Origin: Anaerosomatales bacterium
Lineage (GTDB): Bacteria; Actinomycetota; Coriobacteriia; Anaerosomatales; Anaerosomataceae
NCBI GenBank assembly: GCA_030019445.1
Contig: JASEEU010000001.1
Location: 372,001 to 436,000 of the forward strand
Direction of reading: 5' to 3'
DNA length: 64,000 nucleotides
Shown here: positions 48,174 through 56,321 of the stretch, one piece after another
Layout: each line of letters begins with the position of its first letter
Position numbering within the stretch: position 1 is the first letter of the stretch
The notes under the pieces: model-generated
Seen by the model: the letters and a program-made list of their open reading frames with translations, nothing else
Databases searched by the model: none
What the model was told of the DNA's origin: nothing
Translations under genes and position numbers: made by a program

Positions 48174-49865
48174 ATGCTAGCTGGTACAACCCTTTCTCAC
48201 GGCGACTTCGTCGCGGTGGACATCGAGGCTACGGGATGTCGTCCCGGCAGTGATGACATCCTCGAGATCGGCGCGGCGCGCGTCAGCGCCGGCGCGATCG
48301 TGGGACGCTTCTCGGTCCTCGTGAGACCGACCGCGCCCATCCCGCCCGCGATCCGCCATCTGACCGGTATCGACGACGAGATGGTGGCCTCGGCCGGGTC
48401 GGTCACCGACGCGATGCACGCGTTCCGGGCGTTCGCCGAGGGCGCGGTGCTCGTGGCGCACAACCACCGCTTCGACCTCGGCTTCCTCGACTACGAGGCG
48501 GAGCGCGCCTGGGGCGAGCCGTTCCAGCGCCCCATCCTCGACACGCTCGCCCTGTCGCGTCGCCTGCACCCGGAGTTGCACCGACACAACCTCCGTGCGC
48601 TCGCCGCGTTCTACGGAGCGGAGACGGTCCCGAACCACCGTGCAGAGGCCGACGCGCTCGCCACAGCGGAGATCCTGACCCGCATGCTGCCGGAACTCGA
48701 GGCCCGCGGCCTGGCGACCGCCGGCGATGCCGCGCAGCTGTGCGGGCTCGCGTGCCAGGGCGCGCTCTCCCGCAAGCTCGTCATGGCGACCGACCTGCCG
48801 GACGAACCGGGGGTGTTCCTGTTCCGGGACGCCGAGGGACGGGTCGTCTACGTCGGCAGGGCCAAGAACCTTCGTGCGCGGGTCCGCAGCTTCTTCTACG
48901 CGCCGACCGACTCGGAGCAGGCGGGGCCGGCGCTCGTTGCCTCGTCGGTCTCACATCGTGTGTGTCCATCACCCCTGGATGCTGTTCTTGTCGAGAGCCG
49001 CCTGCTCTCGCGCTATCGTCCCGGCCACCATCGAGACCACGAGCGTGGCCGCGCCGCGGTGTACGTCTACGCCGACACCCACAACCGTTTCCCGTCGGTC
49101 CGCGTCGTCCGCCGACGGTACCGTCGGGGAACGGTCATCGGTCCGCTCTCCAATCGGTGGGCTGCCGAGACGCTCGTGGAGTCGCTGAGGGCGCACTTCG
49201 GCCTGCGACAGTGCGCCCGGCGTCTGGACGGGAGCGCACCCGATCGGCCGTGCGCCCGTCGCGCCGACGGGACGTGTCCGAGCCCGTGTCTCGGCAGTAT
49301 CCCGGCCGAGGAGTACCGGGTGCGGGTGGACAGCGCCCTCGGCGTCTTCGACGGCGCGGGACCGCGGTTCCGACTTGCGCTCCAAGAGCGCCGCGAGGAA
49401 GCCGCCGCTGATCAGCGCTACGAAGAAGCGATCGGCCATCGCGATGCTCTGCGGGCATACGACCGGACCATGTCGGCGCTCAGGGTGGTACGCGAGGTGA
49501 CGCAGGATGCCGGACGTGTGGTCGTCGAGGGTGGTGACCGTGGCGCGGCGCTGCACTTCCTGCGCAACGGGTACCTCGCCCGCACGCTACGCCTCAGCCG
49601 CGCGCAGCTGGCGGGTGCGGGCTGGGAGCCGCTTATCGACCGTGCGGTTCGGCAGGCGTTCGACGAAGCCGATGACGGTCCGGGGCACCTGACCGAGCGT
49701 CAGCTGCGCGACATCTTCCTCATCCACTCGTACCGCTCCCAGCAAGCGCCGCAGGAGGTGGCGCACGCGGGTGACGCCGCGGAGACGGCCCGACGCATCG
49801 TCGCGGTCGTGCGACGCCTCATGCGGATCCCCGTGAACTCGCACGGAGCGCCTTCAGACGATTGA
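48174..49865 (+). CDS. DEDD exonuclease fused to UvrC-like GIY-YIG domain
   Basis: 563 aa. N-terminal DnaQ-type 3'-5' exonuclease (about 10-175) with FVAVDIEATG (Exo I), HNHRFDLGFLDYE (Exo II) and HRAEADALA (Exo III). Next a GIY-YIG nuclease (about 205-290: GVFLFRDAEGRVVYVGRAKNLRARV, catalytic Glu in AVLVESRLLSRYRP). A UvrC-like cysteine set follows (CARRLDGSAPDRPC, then CPSPC), matching UvrC's Fe-S ligands, and a UVR-like helix (REEAAADQRYEEAIGHRD). It lacks the UvrC RNase H and HhH parts. Actinobacterial homologues are annotated as DnaQ/UvrC hybrids. The 3' end overlaps nfo by 47 bases. Confidence 0.88.
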   Translation: MLAGTTLSHGDFVAVDIEATGCRPGSDDILEIGAARVSAGAIVGRFSVLVRPTAPIPPAIRHLTGIDDEMVASAGSVTDAMHAFRAFAEGAVLVAHNHRFDLGFLDYEAERAWGEPFQRPILDTLALSRRLHPELHRHNLRALAAFYGAETVPNHRAEADALATAEILTRMLPELEARGLATAGDAAQLCGLACQGALSRKLVMATDLPDEPGVFLFRDAEGRVVYVGRAKNLRARVRSFFYAPTDSEQAGPALVASSVSHRVCPSPLDAVLVESRLLSRYRPGHHRDHERGRAAVYVYADTHNRFPSVRVVRRRYRRGTVIGPLSNRWAAETLVESLRAHFGLRQCARRLDGSAPDRPCARRADGTCPSPCLGSIPAEEYRVRVDSALGVFDGAGPRFRLALQERREEAAADQRYEEAIGHRDALRAYDRTMSALRVVREVTQDAGRVVVEGGDRGAALHFLRNGYLARTLRLSRAQLAGAGWEPLIDRAVRQAFDEADDGPGHLTERQLRDIFLIHSYRSQQAPQEVAHAGDAAETARRIVAVVRRLMRIPVNSHGAPSDD

Positions 49866-50682
49866 TGTTCTCGGCGTCTTTGAACGGCGCCTCGCCGGGC
49901 ATCTCCATCACCGCGCATGCGGCTGTCAGCCGCGGCTCGGCGAACATCGCCTCGAAGCCCTCCAAGCCGATCGCGCCATCCCCGATCCACGCGTGGCGGT
50001 CCTTGCGGGACCCGAGCTCATGCGCGCAATCGTTGGCGTGGACGAGTCCGATCGCGTCCGTCCCGCACGCCGCTTCGAGTCGATCCATGACGGTGCGCCA
50101 TCCGTCGCGATGACCGAGGTCGAGGCCCGCCGCCCACGCGTGGCAGGTGTCGAGACAGACCCCGGTCCGTCCGCGAACGGGGCCCGGGAGCGACGCGAGC
50201 ACATCGCCGAGCTCTTCGGGCGTGGCCCCGAACGTCGTCCCCGCCCCCGCGGTGTTCTCCAGCAGGAGGCGCACGCTGTCCGTCCCTGATGCCGAGAAGG
50301 CCGCCGAGACGCCCTCTGCGATCCGCTGCGCTGCCATCGTGGGACCATCAGGAGCCGTCCCCAGGTGTGTGACGACAGCCACGGCTCCCAGCAGCTCGCC
50401 CCGGGCGAGCTCGTCAGCGAGCGCACGCACGGAGCGCTCCCGGAGCGCATCGTCGAGGGTACCCAGGTTGATGAGGTACGCCGTGTGCGTGAAGGCGGGT
50501 CCCACGCCGGCGGCCGCGAGGGCGGGTGCCAGCTCGGCGGCCTTCTCGGCACAGAGCGCCGGCGCCCGCCACTGCCGCGGGCTCTTCGCGAAGAGCTGGA
50601 TGCACTCCGCTCCGACGTCGCGCGCGTACTCGGCGGCCTTGGGATAGCCGCCTGCGGCGCTCACATGGACACCGATCCTCAT
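49819..50682 (-). CDS. nfo: Endonuclease IV (AP endonuclease Nfo)
   Basis: Trinuclear zinc TIM-barrel that cuts at abasic sites and repairs oxidised ends. Zinc ligand motifs: FTHTAYLINL, HLGTAPDG, LLLENTAGAGTTFG, GVCLDTCHAWAAG, HANDCAHELGSRKDRHAWIGDG and MEMPGE. 287 aa, normal. ATG at 50682 follows GGGAGAG. Convergent with the DEDD/UvrC-like gene (47-base overlap) and divergent from dinB with only about 50 bases between starts. Confidence 0.96.
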   Translation of the reverse strand: MRIGVHVSAAGGYPKAAEYARDVGAECIQLFAKSPRQWRAPALCAEKAAELAPALAAAGVGPAFTHTAYLINLGTLDDALRERSVRALADELARGELLGAVAVVTHLGTAPDGPTMAAQRIAEGVSAAFSASGTDSVRLLLENTAGAGTTFGATPEELGDVLASLPGPVRGRTGVCLDTCHAWAAGLDLGHRDGWRTVMDRLEAACGTDAIGLVHANDCAHELGSRKDRHAWIGDGAIGLEGFEAMFAEPRLTAACAVMEMPGEAPFKDAENINRLKALRASSRGSA

Positions 50683-50722
50683 GGACTCTCTCCCGCTTGC
50701 TGTGCGCAGACGCGCCTCGCAC

Positions 50723-50728
50723 TACACT
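50723..50728 (+). promoter_or_regulatory. -10 box of dinB (leaderless)
   Basis: TACACT (50723-50728), 5 of 6 consensus, lies exactly 6 bases before the dinB ATG at 50735, so +1 would be the A of ATG. TTGCTG at 50697-50702 is a possible -35 with a long 20-base spacer. Confidence 0.5.
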
Positions 50729-50734
50729 GGAGGC

Positions 50735-51937
50735 ATGGACGAGAGCGTACCATCCTGGACGGGTCGGGCCATCCTCCACGTGGACATGGACGCGTTCTTC
50801 GCGAGCGTGGAGCAGCTCGATCATCCCGAGTGGCGGGGACGTCCCGTCATCGTCGGCGGCTCCCCGGACGGCCGCGGCGTCGTCTCGGCCGCAAGCTACG
50901 AGGCGCGTCGCTTCGGCGTCCGCTCTGCCATGCCCTCGGCGCAGGCAGCGCGGCTCTGTCCTGACGCGGTGTGGGCCCCGGCGCGGTTCGACCGCTACCG
51001 GGAGCTCTCGCGCGCGGTGTTCGCTCTGTTCGGGGATATCACACCCGATGTGGAACCGATGTCGGTCGATGAGGCGTACCTCGACGTGACGCCCGCCACC
51101 CACGGCGAGGACCCGGTCGGCGTGGCACAGCGCATCCAGTCGGCCGTCGACGAGCTTGGGCTCTCGTGCTCGATCGGCGTTGCGACATCGAAGTCGGTGG
51201 CCAAGATCGCGTCGGACCATCGCAAGCCGCACGGGATCACCGTCGTCCCTCCCGGCACGGAGCGCGCGTTCCTCGCTCCCCTCCCGGTGACCGCCCTTGG
51301 CGGCATCGGTCGGTCGACGGCGGCACGTCTCGCCGGGGTGGGCGTCCGCACGCTTGGCGACCTGGCCGCGCTCGATCCCGCGACCGCCGGTCACCTGCTC
51401 GGCTCGGCGGGAACGAGCCTGCTGGAACGCGCCCGGGGTGTCGACGCCCGACCGATCGACACAGGCCGCGAGCGCAAGTCCGTCTCGGCGGAGCACACGT
51501 TCTCCACCGACATCCACACCCGCGACGAGGTCGAGATGCACATGCGGGCGCTCGTGGAGCGCGTGACGTCCCGATTGCGCCGTGCCGGCGTGGCCGGACG
51601 GACGGTGACGGTGAAGCTGCGGTTCGCCGACTTCACGACGCGCACCGCGCAGCGCACGCTCGCCGGGCCAAGCGACCTGGGGGCCGAACTCGAGCCGGTC
51701 GCGCTCGAACTGCTGGCCGAGGTGTGGTCGGTCGGAACGGGATTGCGGCTGCTCGGCTTCGGCGTCTCCGGTCTCACCGACCCGTCCCGCCAGCTGGACC
51801 TCTTCGGCGCCGATTCCGACGCCGTGCGCCACGGCGAGCTCATGCGCGGCATCGACGCGATCCGCGGTCGCTTCGGCGAGGGCAGCATCTCGATCGGGCC
51901 GCCGCGGAGGTCTTCTCGCGAGCGCGACGAAGGGTAA
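50735..51937 (+). CDS. dinB: DNA polymerase IV (DinB)
   Basis: Y-family translesion polymerase. AILHVDMDAFFASVEQLDHPE and SVDEAYLDVTPA carry the catalytic carboxylates; GIGRSTAARLAGVGVRTLGDL is the thumb HhH region, and a little-finger domain follows. Near the C-terminus (about residue 367) RQLDLFGAD matches the beta-clamp-binding pentapeptide QLDLF. ATG at 50735 (MDESVPSWTGRAILH) gives 400 aa. No gap in conserved motifs. Neighbours are nfo, a lipoprotein gene and DnaE2. Confidence 0.95.
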   Translation: MDESVPSWTGRAILHVDMDAFFASVEQLDHPEWRGRPVIVGGSPDGRGVVSAASYEARRFGVRSAMPSAQAARLCPDAVWAPARFDRYRELSRAVFALFGDITPDVEPMSVDEAYLDVTPATHGEDPVGVAQRIQSAVDELGLSCSIGVATSKSVAKIASDHRKPHGITVVPPGTERAFLAPLPVTALGGIGRSTAARLAGVGVRTLGDLAALDPATAGHLLGSAGTSLLERARGVDARPIDTGRERKSVSAEHTFSTDIHTRDEVEMHMRALVERVTSRLRRAGVAGRTVTVKLRFADFTTRTAQRTLAGPSDLGAELEPVALELLAEVWSVGTGLRLLGFGVSGLTDPSRQLDLFGADSDAVRHGELMRGIDAIRGRFGEGSISIGPPRRSSRERDEG

Positions 51938-52406: not shown

Positions 52407-55400
52407 TCACCCGCCCTCGGCGTAGACGTCGGCGTGCTCCCAGGACTCCTCCTCGGGCGCGCCCGCTCCCGGTCGCGTGGGTCCCATCGGCCCGAGCCCG
52501 ACGCCGCGTCGCATGCGGACCGGCGCGCCTGTCCCCGCACGGACGACGTAGGGCGCGATCTTCTCGGCCACGATCGCGAGCCCCCGCTCGTGGTTGTTCT
52601 GCAGCACGCCCTCCACGACGTATGCGCGGTGCTTGACGATGACGTCGCCGTAGCGCCCGAGCGTATCTTCGAACACGACGACGTCGAGCAAGCCTGTCGG
52701 GTCCTCCATCGTCAGGAAGCACGTCCGCTTGCCCGAGCGCGTGCGCGGCGTCTGAGCCCGCTCCCGCACCCCGCACACACGGACGCGGGTGCGGTCGGAG
52801 AGACGCGGGAGGTCGCGCGCCCAGGTGACGCCGCGTCGCTCGAGGTCCGCGCGCGCGAGCTCGAGGGGATGCGCGGTGAGCGACAGGCCGATGAGCTCGA
52901 GCTCCGCACCGACGCGCCGCGCCGGCGACCAGCCCGAGACGTGGCCGGCGTCTTCACGTTCCCGCGCACGCGCCGGTGCGATCAGCAACGTGTCGTCGCC
53001 GGCCACGCCCTGCCTGGCGATGACCGCTTTGAGCTCGGGGACCAGCGCGAGCATCTCGTCGCGCGTGGGTGGTCGTCCGAGGTCGGTCACCCCCAGGCCA
53101 TCGAGAGCCCCTACGCGAACGAGGCTCTCGGCGGCCGGCTCCTCGGCGCGCGTCCGTGCAAGGAAGTCCGCGAGGTCGGCGAAGGGCCGCACGGCCCGTT
53201 CGCGCTCGATCGCGGCGAGCAGGCGCGAGGTCATATGGAGGAGGTCTTTGAGGCCCACGCGTACGGCGCCCCCTTCGTCCTCCACACGGTACTCCGCCGA
53301 GGATGCGTTGATGTGCGGCGCCAGTATCCGGATGCCGTGCCGCCGGGCATCGTTGACGACGAGCCGCGGGCTGTAGAACCCCATCGGCTGGTTGTTCATG
53401 ATCGCGGCCACGAACTCGGCCGGATAGTGCGCCTTGAGCCAGGCGCTCGCATAGCTCACGACGCCGAAGCACGCCGCGTGCGCCTTGCAAAAGCCGTAGG
53501 CGGCGAACCCCTGGAGCTGGCGGAAGACCTCCTCGGCCACCTCGGGTGTGGTGCCGAGCGCCACGGCCCGGTCGACGAAGTGCGCGTGGATGGACTCCAT
53601 CTCCTCGCGTGAGCGGTCCTTGGTCATCGCGCGCCTGAGGGAGTCCGCCTCGGCGAGCGTGAAGCCGGCGACCTTCTCGGCCACCCGCAGCACCTGCTCC
53701 TGGTAGAGGATGACGCCGTAGGAATCGGCCAGCACCGGGCCCATCGCCGGATGCGGCACGGTCACCGGCTCCACGCCATGGCGGCGGCGGATGAAGGGCG
53801 TGATCATCTCGGCCTCCAGAGGACCCGGCCGAAAGAGCGAGATCGCGGCGATGATGTCTTCGAACGTGCGCTCCCGCAGGCGCGTGGCGAGGTTACGCTG
53901 GCCGCTGCTCTCGAGCTGGAACATGCCGACCGTGTCCGCCGAGGATATGAGCTCGTAGACGCGGGGGTCGTCACGAGGGTCGAGCTCGAAGGGCTCGGGG
54001 ACCGCGCTCTCACCCGCACGCTCGCGCGCCATGGCCACCGTGTCGCTGATGGCCGAGTGCATCCTGAGGCCCAGGATGTCCATCTTCACGAGCCCGAGCG
54101 CCTCGATGTCGTCCTTGTCGTACTGCGAGACCACGACGCCCTTGGCCGCCCACTGCAGCGGCATCCACGTGTCGATCGGCTCGCGCGTGATGATGAAGCC
54201 GCCGAGGTGCGTGCCGAGGTGCATGGGGCACGCCTCGAGCTGGCTCGCGAGCTCGATGAGCAGCGCGTGCTCGGGCGCTTTGAGGGGATGGTCGCGACAC
54301 TCGGGGTAGGTCTCGAGCACCTCGGCAAGCCGGCTCGCGCGGACCCACGGCAGGTAGCGCGAGAGCGCGTTGACGGTGTCGGACGGATGGCCGAGCGCGC
54401 GCGCCACGGTGCGGACCGCGCTGCGCGCCGTCATCGTGTTCACCGTGGCGACCATCGCGACGTGGTCGTGCCCGAAGCGGTCGTAGATGTAGGCGATGAC
54501 CTCGTCCCGACGGCGGGAGTCGAAGTCGACGTCGATGTCGGGCATCTGGCGCCGCTCGGGGTTGAGGAAGCGCTCGAAGAGCAGGTCGTAGGCGATGGGG
54601 TCCGCGTCGGTGATGCCGAGCGCGTAGGTCACGATCGAGTCTCCCGCGCTCCCGCGGCCGCTGCACCGGATGCCTTCGCGCCGGGCGAAGTCCACGATGT
54701 CTTTCACGACGAGGAAGTACTCGGCATACCCGAGATCGGAGATCACGGCGAGCTCGTGCTGAAGACGCCGCAGCGCCTCGGGGGTCATCGGCCGGTAGCG
54801 GTCCTCAAGGCCGCGCCAGGCGGCCTTGGAGAGCACCGAGTACGGCGTCTCGCCGCGCGGGACCTCCACCGAGGGGAAGTGCAGCTGTCCGAGGCCGAGG
54901 TCCAGATCGCAGCGCGCGGCGATCTCAAGCGTGGCGTCGCACGCTTCGGGCATGCCCGAGAAGAGCCGACGCATCTCCGACGCTGGTTTGAGCCAGAGCT
55001 CGGCGTTGGAGCGGTCGTACGGGCCCGGGAGCGTCGTCCGTGCGCCTGCCGATGCGAGGACGTCATGGAGCCGGAAGCGGTCGGCGGTGGTGTAGTGCAC
55101 ATCGTTGGTGGCGACGACCGGCAGCCCGCACCGCTCGGCAAGCGATGCCAGACCGCTCACGTAGCGGGGGCTCTCCGGTGTGAGCAGATGCATGAGCTCC
55201 ACGTACAGGTCTCCCGGAGCAAGGCAGCGCGCAAGGCGTCGGAGCGCGCGCTCGGCGCGTCCCGGGCGCCCGGCGAGGACCGCGCTGCCGACCTCTCCGC
55301 CGGGACATCCCGTCAGGCCGATGAGCCCTTCGGAGAGCGCTTCGAGATCGGTGATGCCGACGAGCGACGCCTCATCTCCCGAGCGCACGTGGGCGCGGGA

Positions 55401-55772
55401 GATGAGGCGGCAGAGGTTGCGGTAGCCGGTCATGTCCTTGACGAGCAGCGTCAGATGGAAGCCGCCGTAGCCCGCCGCGCGCCCGAAGCCGACCGGCGCC
55501 GGAACGGGCAGCCGCTCCTCGGGCGGCAGGTCGCCCTCACCGCCGAGCGTCCCCGCCGCCTCGATGACCACCTCGGCGCCGATGATCGGACGGATGCCCG
55601 CCGCGATGGCGGCGCGGTAGAAGCGGATGGCTCCCGAGAGGCCCTGGTGATCGGTCAGGGCGAGAGCGGGCATGCCGAGCGAGACGGCCCGCTCGATCAG
55701 CGCACCGATGTCGGCGGCACCATCCATGAAGCTGAAGTTCGAATGCACGTGGAGGTGGACGAACGAGGCCAC
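52407..55772 (-). CDS. dnaE2: DNA polymerase III alpha subunit, DnaE2/ImuC type
   Basis: 1121-aa C-family polymerase. PHP domain starts FVHLHVHSNFSFMDGAADIG and ALALTDHQGLSGAIRF, the NFSFLDGA-type signature of DnaE2; catalytic carboxylates lie in PDIDVDFDSRRRDEV and further motifs follow (HLGGFIITREPI, KMDILGLRMHSAI, GYGVILYQEQVL-like YGVILYQEQV, SLRRAMTKDRS). The C-terminal OB domain is present. Expected error-prone translesion function. GTG start at 55772 is 2 bases after the DUF6504-like stop, so both are on one SOS-controlled transcript. Confidence 0.92.
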   Translation of the reverse strand: MASFVHLHVHSNFSFMDGAADIGALIERAVSLGMPALALTDHQGLSGAIRFYRAAIAAGIRPIIGAEVVIEAAGTLGGEGDLPPEERLPVPAPVGFGRAAGYGGFHLTLLVKDMTGYRNLCRLISRAHVRSGDEASLVGITDLEALSEGLIGLTGCPGGEVGSAVLAGRPGRAERALRRLARCLAPGDLYVELMHLLTPESPRYVSGLASLAERCGLPVVATNDVHYTTADRFRLHDVLASAGARTTLPGPYDRSNAELWLKPASEMRRLFSGMPEACDATLEIAARCDLDLGLGQLHFPSVEVPRGETPYSVLSKAAWRGLEDRYRPMTPEALRRLQHELAVISDLGYAEYFLVVKDIVDFARREGIRCSGRGSAGDSIVTYALGITDADPIAYDLLFERFLNPERRQMPDIDVDFDSRRRDEVIAYIYDRFGHDHVAMVATVNTMTARSAVRTVARALGHPSDTVNALSRYLPWVRASRLAEVLETYPECRDHPLKAPEHALLIELASQLEACPMHLGTHLGGFIITREPIDTWMPLQWAAKGVVVSQYDKDDIEALGLVKMDILGLRMHSAISDTVAMARERAGESAVPEPFELDPRDDPRVYELISSADTVGMFQLESSGQRNLATRLRERTFEDIIAAISLFRPGPLEAEMITPFIRRRHGVEPVTVPHPAMGPVLADSYGVILYQEQVLRVAEKVAGFTLAEADSLRRAMTKDRSREEMESIHAHFVDRAVALGTTPEVAEEVFRQLQGFAAYGFCKAHAACFGVVSYASAWLKAHYPAEFVAAIMNNQPMGFYSPRLVVNDARRHGIRILAPHINASSAEYRVEDEGGAVRVGLKDLLHMTSRLLAAIERERAVRPFADLADFLARTRAEEPAAESLVRVGALDGLGVTDLGRPPTRDEMLALVPELKAVIARQGVAGDDTLLIAPARAREREDAGHVSGWSPARRVGAELELIGLSLTAHPLELARADLERRGVTWARDLPRLSDRTRVRVCGVRERAQTPRTRSGKRTCFLTMEDPTGLLDVVVFEDTLGRYGDVIVKHRAYVVEGVLQNNHERGLAIVAEKIAPYVVRAGTGAPVRMRRGVGLGPMGPTRPGAGAPEEESWEHADVYAEGG

Positions 55773-55774
55773 GG

Positions 55775-56188
55775 TCAGTCACCGATGCCCGTCAGCAGCC
55801 AGCGACCGGCGATGCGGTCGTACGCGAGGTCATAGAGGCCGCCGCGCGCGAGGACCCGGAAGCAGCGGCGGCTCATCCGCGTTCGAAGGTCCCACCAGGA
55901 ACGCTCCACGCTCCACGTCTGCACGAGGGCGTCGACCGGGTACCGCCTGCCGGCGTACGTGAACGAGGCCGGACAGCTCCGTGTCCCGTCCCAGACGACG
56001 TCGACCTCGTGCTCGACCCGTTTGCCCGCTCCGATCGGACGTGGCGGCAGGTCTGAGGCACGCATGATCCAGGGGCTCCGCAGCAGCTCGAGCACCACGG
56101 GAAGCCGGGTGTTCTGAGCCTCGAACAGGTCGAGCGGCTGGCCCGGACGCTTGGGATCGAACTCTTTGATGGCGCGATTCCGGCCCAT
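55775..56188 (-). CDS. DUF6504-like small protein with clamp-binding-like motif
   Basis: 137 aa. Residues 16-22 GQPLDLF resemble a beta-clamp-binding peptide. The C-terminal part (SWWDLRTRMSRRCFRVLARGGLYDLAYDRIAGRWLLTGIGD) matches the DUF6504 pattern of proteins encoded beside error-prone polymerases in actinobacteria (recalled from family knowledge, not searched). No catalytic motif is visible. It may link DnaE2 to the clamp in place of ImuB (inference). ATG at 56188 has GGAGACG upstream; the gene starts an SOS-controlled transcript with dnaE2. Confidence 0.7.
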   Translation of the reverse strand: MGRNRAIKEFDPKRPGQPLDLFEAQNTRLPVVLELLRSPWIMRASDLPPRPIGAGKRVEHEVDVVWDGTRSCPASFTYAGRRYPVDALVQTWSVERSWWDLRTRMSRRCFRVLARGGLYDLAYDRIAGRWLLTGIGD

Positions 56189-56256: not shown

Positions 56257-56285
56257 AGTATAGCGAACGTATGTTCGGTATACAA
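56257..56285 (-). promoter_or_regulatory. Promoter of DUF6504-dnaE2
   Basis: Minus strand: -35 TTGTAT (56280-56285), 17-base spacer, -10 TATACT (56257-56262). Expected start about 60 bases before the ATG at 56188. The spacer contains a LexA-type palindrome. Confidence 0.75.
56264..56277 (-). promoter_or_regulatory. LexA (SOS) box
   Basis: CGAAC-GTAT-GTTCG (56264-56277), the Gram-positive/actinobacterial SOS consensus CGAAC-N4-GTTCG with an exact palindromic arm. Located between the -35 and -10 boxes, where LexA binding would block transcription. Confidence 0.85.
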
Positions 56286-56321
56286 GACGCCTCTGACACC
56301 GGCGACGGGACGTGCGGGAGA

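Follow-up and report, generated by a model that had tools for sequence, protein, structure and literature searches.

A LexA box within the promoter of a DUF6504-dnaE2 operon in an uncultured Coriobacteriia bacterium, overlapped by a PafBC-like element

Results and Discussion

A predicted SOS promoter ahead of DUF6504 and dnaE2

In an uncultured Coriobacteriia bacterium (genome 97.6% complete), an operon encoding a DUF6504 protein and the error-prone polymerase DnaE2 is very probably under LexA/SOS control, as judged from its sequence, such that LexA would occlude the promoter and DNA damage would induce it. The relevant features of the 64-kb window (i.e., the whole stretch of DNA analyzed) are:

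50681..51937, plus strand: dinB-type Y-family polymerase gene, active-site motifs kept, convergent to and beyond dnaE2
52407..55772, minus strand: dnaE2, error-prone C-family polymerase, 1121 aa, GTG start at 55772
55775..56188, minus strand: DUF6504 protein, 137 aa (ATG at 56188, stop at 55775; Pfam PF20114)
56257..56262, minus strand: -10 hexamer TATACT, 17 nt from the -35, TANNNT conserved in place
56264..56277, no strand: palindromic LexA (SOS) box CGAACGTATGTTCG, assigned by sequence and by conservation (47/48 promoters)
56277..56298, minus strand: RecA-NDp/PafBC-like element TGTCAGAG-GCGTCTTG-TATACC (TGTCAGAG-N8-TA), directly upstream
56280..56285, minus strand: -35-like hexamer TTGTAT, weak, TTG conserved

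The plus strand reads AGTATA (56257-56262), G, CGAACGTATGTTCG (56264-56277), GT and ATACAA (56280-56285), which on the minus strand gives TTGTAT-ACCGAACATACGTTCGC-TATACT, with the perfect LexA box CGAACATACGTTCG lying inside the 17-nt spacer. The original prediction had placed a LexA box between these two hexamers, and the sequence agrees with it. It had also assigned the box to the promoter of a DUF6504-dnaE2 operon, which holds as well, since both genes lie downstream on the minus strand with 2 nt between them; an HD-domain gene is found upstream of the operon on the same strand. The box at 56264..56277 matches the SOS-box pattern CGAACNNNNGTTCG, and the operon shares with the Gram-positive and actinobacterial LexA system (CGAAC-N4-GTTCG) the same 14-mer, the kind of target gene and the location of the box within the promoter. 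There is no difference in kind, the host being an uncultured Coriobacteriia lineage, and a literature search found no paper joining Coriobacteriia, LexA and the SOS response.

Within the window, the perfect 14-mer occurs once (0.15 copies expected), and the combined pattern of promoter and box also once when two mismatches are allowed, as compared with 0 of 100 shuffles. No perfect LexA box was found for dinB in these 64 kb. The hexamer TTGTAT matches TTGACA at only 3 of 6 bases, and a consensus promoter scan made no call at 56257-56285 because of this weak -35. Genome-wide, the 12-mer core GAACNNNNGTTC was found at 26 sites vs. 19 for a reversed-pattern control; this count, barely above the control, was dropped as proof of a LexA role, and the site is taken as real because of its position and conservation rather than the frequency of its core.

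Conservation of the box across the order

Conservation was evaluated on 48 promoters, namely the window and 47 fetched loci of the same order, all upstream of DUF6504 (loci from the genome-contig set mostly duplicate the genomes given G handles, and were not taken as independent). A perfect LexA box precedes DUF6504-dnaE2 in 47 of these 48 genomes, window counted. In an alignment of 41 promoters, for which the box core was a precondition and the box is hence perfect in 41/41, TTG stands at a fixed distance from the box in 35 and TANNNT in 39, and the flanks carry little information outside the box, TTG, TANNNT and a TGTCAGA block. The single promoter without a box belongs to G045, whose dnaE2 is split into two overlapping pieces in different frames. 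The gene is in pieces in one genus (L099, which is the same as G045, and G058), and in G045 the loss of the box alongside the broken dnaE2 looks as if the operon were decaying. In three other promoters (L045, L052 and L102), the box grows into a near-perfect palindrome of 24-26 bp, of the type GTATATCGAACATATGTTCGATATA(C/G), with TATA on either side.

LexA and its other predicted targets

The absence of LexA from the genome had been named as grounds for rejecting the original prediction; the genome does encode LexA, in one copy, and the protein has its DNA-binding and S24 domains, an Ala-Gly cleavage site and the Ser/Lys pair. Boxes of the same type are found in this genome at lexA (two), recA, ruvC and uvrD, of which the ruvC box has a core (GAACATACGTTC) identical to that of the DUF6504-dnaE2 operon, and the recA box likewise sits within a 17-nt spacer (TTGACA-17-TAGCGT). 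The single LexA, the matching boxes and the order-wide conservation of box and promoter geometry all support the operon as a predicted SOS target, as originally proposed, and on these grounds we infer LexA repression with near certainty.

An overlapping PafBC-like element

The PafBC-like element overlaps the -35, and its final base doubles as the opening base of the LexA box. The consensus of mycobacterial RecA-NDp (PafBC) promoters is tTGTCRgtg-8 nt-TannnT (PMC5656591), with which the element shares TGTCRG, the 8-nt gap and TA; further likenesses are that both PafB and PafC are encoded and that recA appears dually controlled. Unlike in mycobacteria, the two signals overlap at the dnaE2 operon, TGTCRG is followed by A rather than T, and the -10 of the window (TATACC) lacks the last T of TANNNT. 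Because of this missing T, whether the element is used in the window is uncertain and our confidence in this part of the model is moderate: from the sequence, a PafBC input at this promoter is about an even proposition, and the PafBC-type promoter could be weak or vestigial, both here and in most members of the window family.

The element lies 22 nt from the box core in 27 promoters, where the -10 is TATAYC and ends on the base with which the LexA box begins; in the window family, this -10 is mostly TATACC or TATATC, without the final T. In eight others (L033, L036, L041, L048, L051, L054, L100 and L102, with TGTCATA in L036), the element is shifted by 7 to 18 bp and lies 29 to 40 nt from the box. 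Roughly one in four of the promoters showed no recognizable element of this kind.

A first alternative is that LexA is the operon's sole controller, the PafBC-like element being a relic or a coincidence. The absent final T in the window family and the promoters without a recognizable element are both in its favor, as is the reported RecA dependence of dnaE2, imuA' and imuB induction in Mycobacterium tuberculosis (PMC8151990). However, of 47 operon promoters, 35 have TGTCRGA in the 80 nt ahead of the box, and in 34 it is followed by N8-TA, against 0.014 expected from Markov shuffles. Moreover, the sixth base of the -10 is T in all eight shifted elements, as the published TANNNT consensus requires (PMC5656591), and other actinobacterial DUF6504 promoters also join the element to a LexA box, several of those elsewhere in the phylum having a full PafBC-type motif ahead of it. 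We consider control by LexA alone possible, at a probability clearly short of even.

It could also be argued that the TGTCAGAG block serves the TATACT promoter, whether as an upstream element or as the site of another activator, and is not part of a PafBC promoter. Within the window family, the block stands at a constant spacing from TTG and TATACT, so that the data from this family alone do not decide the partner of TGTCAGAG. In other families, the block moves relative to both the box and TATACT and yet keeps N8-TANNNT, and the same motif is found at recA (in canonical form in this genome and in 24 of 30 relatives) and beside lexA, which makes such a role unlikely. As for a chance palindrome with no LexA role, the scant genome-wide enrichment of the 12-mer core would allow it, but a box that is perfect and in place in 47/48 genomes and common to lexA, recA, ruvC and uvrD renders it highly improbable.

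Returning to the reading with a PafBC input, the pattern TGTCRGWS-N8-TANNNT has 10 matches in the genome vs. 1 for the reversed pattern, and 797 vs. 88 over 61 genomes. Among the 10 are the match at recA, one beside lexA that points toward a small gene, and one adjoining a LexA box on contig C18. PafB and PafC are encoded by tandem genes that match the PafBC chains of solved structures, and a PafC domain is present in 57 of 61 relatives. No proteasome subunit gene was found in the genome.

Other loci carry the PafBC-type motif as well. The gene divergent from lexA (L076:2502-2879, minus strand; G000:C11) has the full motif as its promoter and encodes 125 aa with a hydrophobic segment, a LysM-like stretch and no Pfam match; its product presumably resembles the YneA/Rv2719c cell-division inhibitors. 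At L089:1471-1925 (G000:C18), the motif is followed 28 nt on by a LexA box and then by a small ORF that has no Pfam match and begins with the clamp-motif-like MQQLDLGL. At L103:1143-1700 (minus strand), it lies upstream of a gene pair for an AbrB/MazE-type antitoxin and a PIN-like toxin.

DUF6504 as a distant relative of ImuB-C

In comparisons with ImuB by hhalign and hmmsearch, the DUF6504 profile aligns to the extreme C-terminus of the Candidatus Manganitrophus ImuB (hhalign E 3e-5) and to a profile of six ImuB sequences (77%, hhalign E 2e-5). Profile alignment was used because the Pfam DUF6504 model gave a single, sub-threshold hit on the six ImuB proteins, none of which reaches the Pfam cut-off. 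Massilia matches from the DUF6504 search were discarded as unrelated proteins and not ImuB. One structure prediction gave a fold of seven strands over residues 60-136, mostly at high confidence, and a low-confidence N-terminus; this model agrees with published descriptions of ImuB-C as a beta-barrel (PMC12926913). We regard DUF6504 as a stand-alone protein remotely related to the C-terminal domain of ImuB (ImuB-C). Its N-terminus holds a GQPLDLF-like motif conserved in the order and missing from the DUF6504 proteins that stand alone in other actinobacterial groups, and we take GQPLDLF to resemble a beta-clamp binding motif. The relatives gathered by DUF6504 are Coriobacteriia and Actinobacteria metagenome bins.

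A paralogue of dnaE2, of replicative type and 37% identical, lies elsewhere in the genome. The six DUF6504-less genomes that are at least 90% complete (G014, G023, G032, G036, G040 and G051) hold only the replicative paralogue (34-36% identical), which indicates that DUF6504 and dnaE2 go together. No ImuB was found in the 97.6% complete genome, the sole Y-family gene being of DinB type, and a single RecA-family match was obtained. At its C-terminus, DinB has a clamp-like QLDLF motif and a segment resembling the RecA N-terminus (RecA-NT-like): DinB GIDAIRGRFGEGSISIG is similar by eye to RecA EQIERKFGKGSLMRLG, and the segment is similar in 35 neighbors. The gene itself closes what looks like a DNA-repair cluster (48174-51937) of an exonuclease and GIY-YIG-type protein, an endonuclease IV-like ORF divergent from dinB, and dinB, the first two items having been named by eye.

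This gene set matches, at the sequence level, a DnaE2/ImuB-C/PolY/RecA mutasome, a type already described as DnaE2B-[ImuB-C]-PolY-RecA in actinobacteria, where the complex itself is putative (Nucleic Acids Res. 2026, PMC12926913; precursor 2019, PMC6511836). Shared with that type are dnaE2 with a stand-alone ImuB-C-like protein and no ImuB found, and a Y-family polymerase with a RecA-NT-like motif. Unlike in that type, PolY is here convergent and outside the operon, and the ImuB-C-like protein is extended at its N-terminus by a stretch that contains GQPLDLF.

Proposed regulation and its significance

In the model that we favor, LexA dimers on the box in the 17-nt spacer would deny sigma-70 RNA polymerase access to TTGTAT/TATACT. 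Filaments of RecA on single-stranded DNA would trigger LexA self-cleavage, upon which DUF6504 (as an ImuB-C-like adaptor) and DnaE2 would be co-produced. As the genome yielded no ImuB, DnaE2 would most likely partner the adaptor, RecA and the neighboring DinB in translesion synthesis. The upstream PafBC-type element is probably a second damage input, acting by activation, and as its -10 overlaps the SOS -35 and abuts the box, LexA bound there would block both starts. The original prediction was incomplete, as it included neither the PafBC-like overlap nor the kinship between DUF6504 and ImuB.

Across the order, it is tempting to speculate, at about even confidence, that the DnaE2/ImuB-C promoter is a two-sensor promoter. 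In some 40 bp, a PafBC-activated start would overlap a LexA-repressed sigma-70 start, LexA would veto the two alike, and maximal expression would require PafBC activated by ssDNA as well as the loss of LexA, all in a genome that yielded no proteasome gene.

That dnaE2 should be under SOS control is in itself expected. An overlap of the LexA operator with a PafBC-type element on the mutasome operon would, if true, place mutagenesis induced by damage under the two sensors jointly, in contrast to M. tuberculosis. Since the M. tuberculosis dnaE2, imuA' and imuB genes are reported as RecA-dependent (PMC8151990), a demonstrated PafBC input at dnaE2 would be a novelty. PafBC control would then reach the Coriobacteriia, including a genome without any proteasome gene among those found, and these promoters would form a conserved natural set for testing how LexA and PafBC share one promoter.
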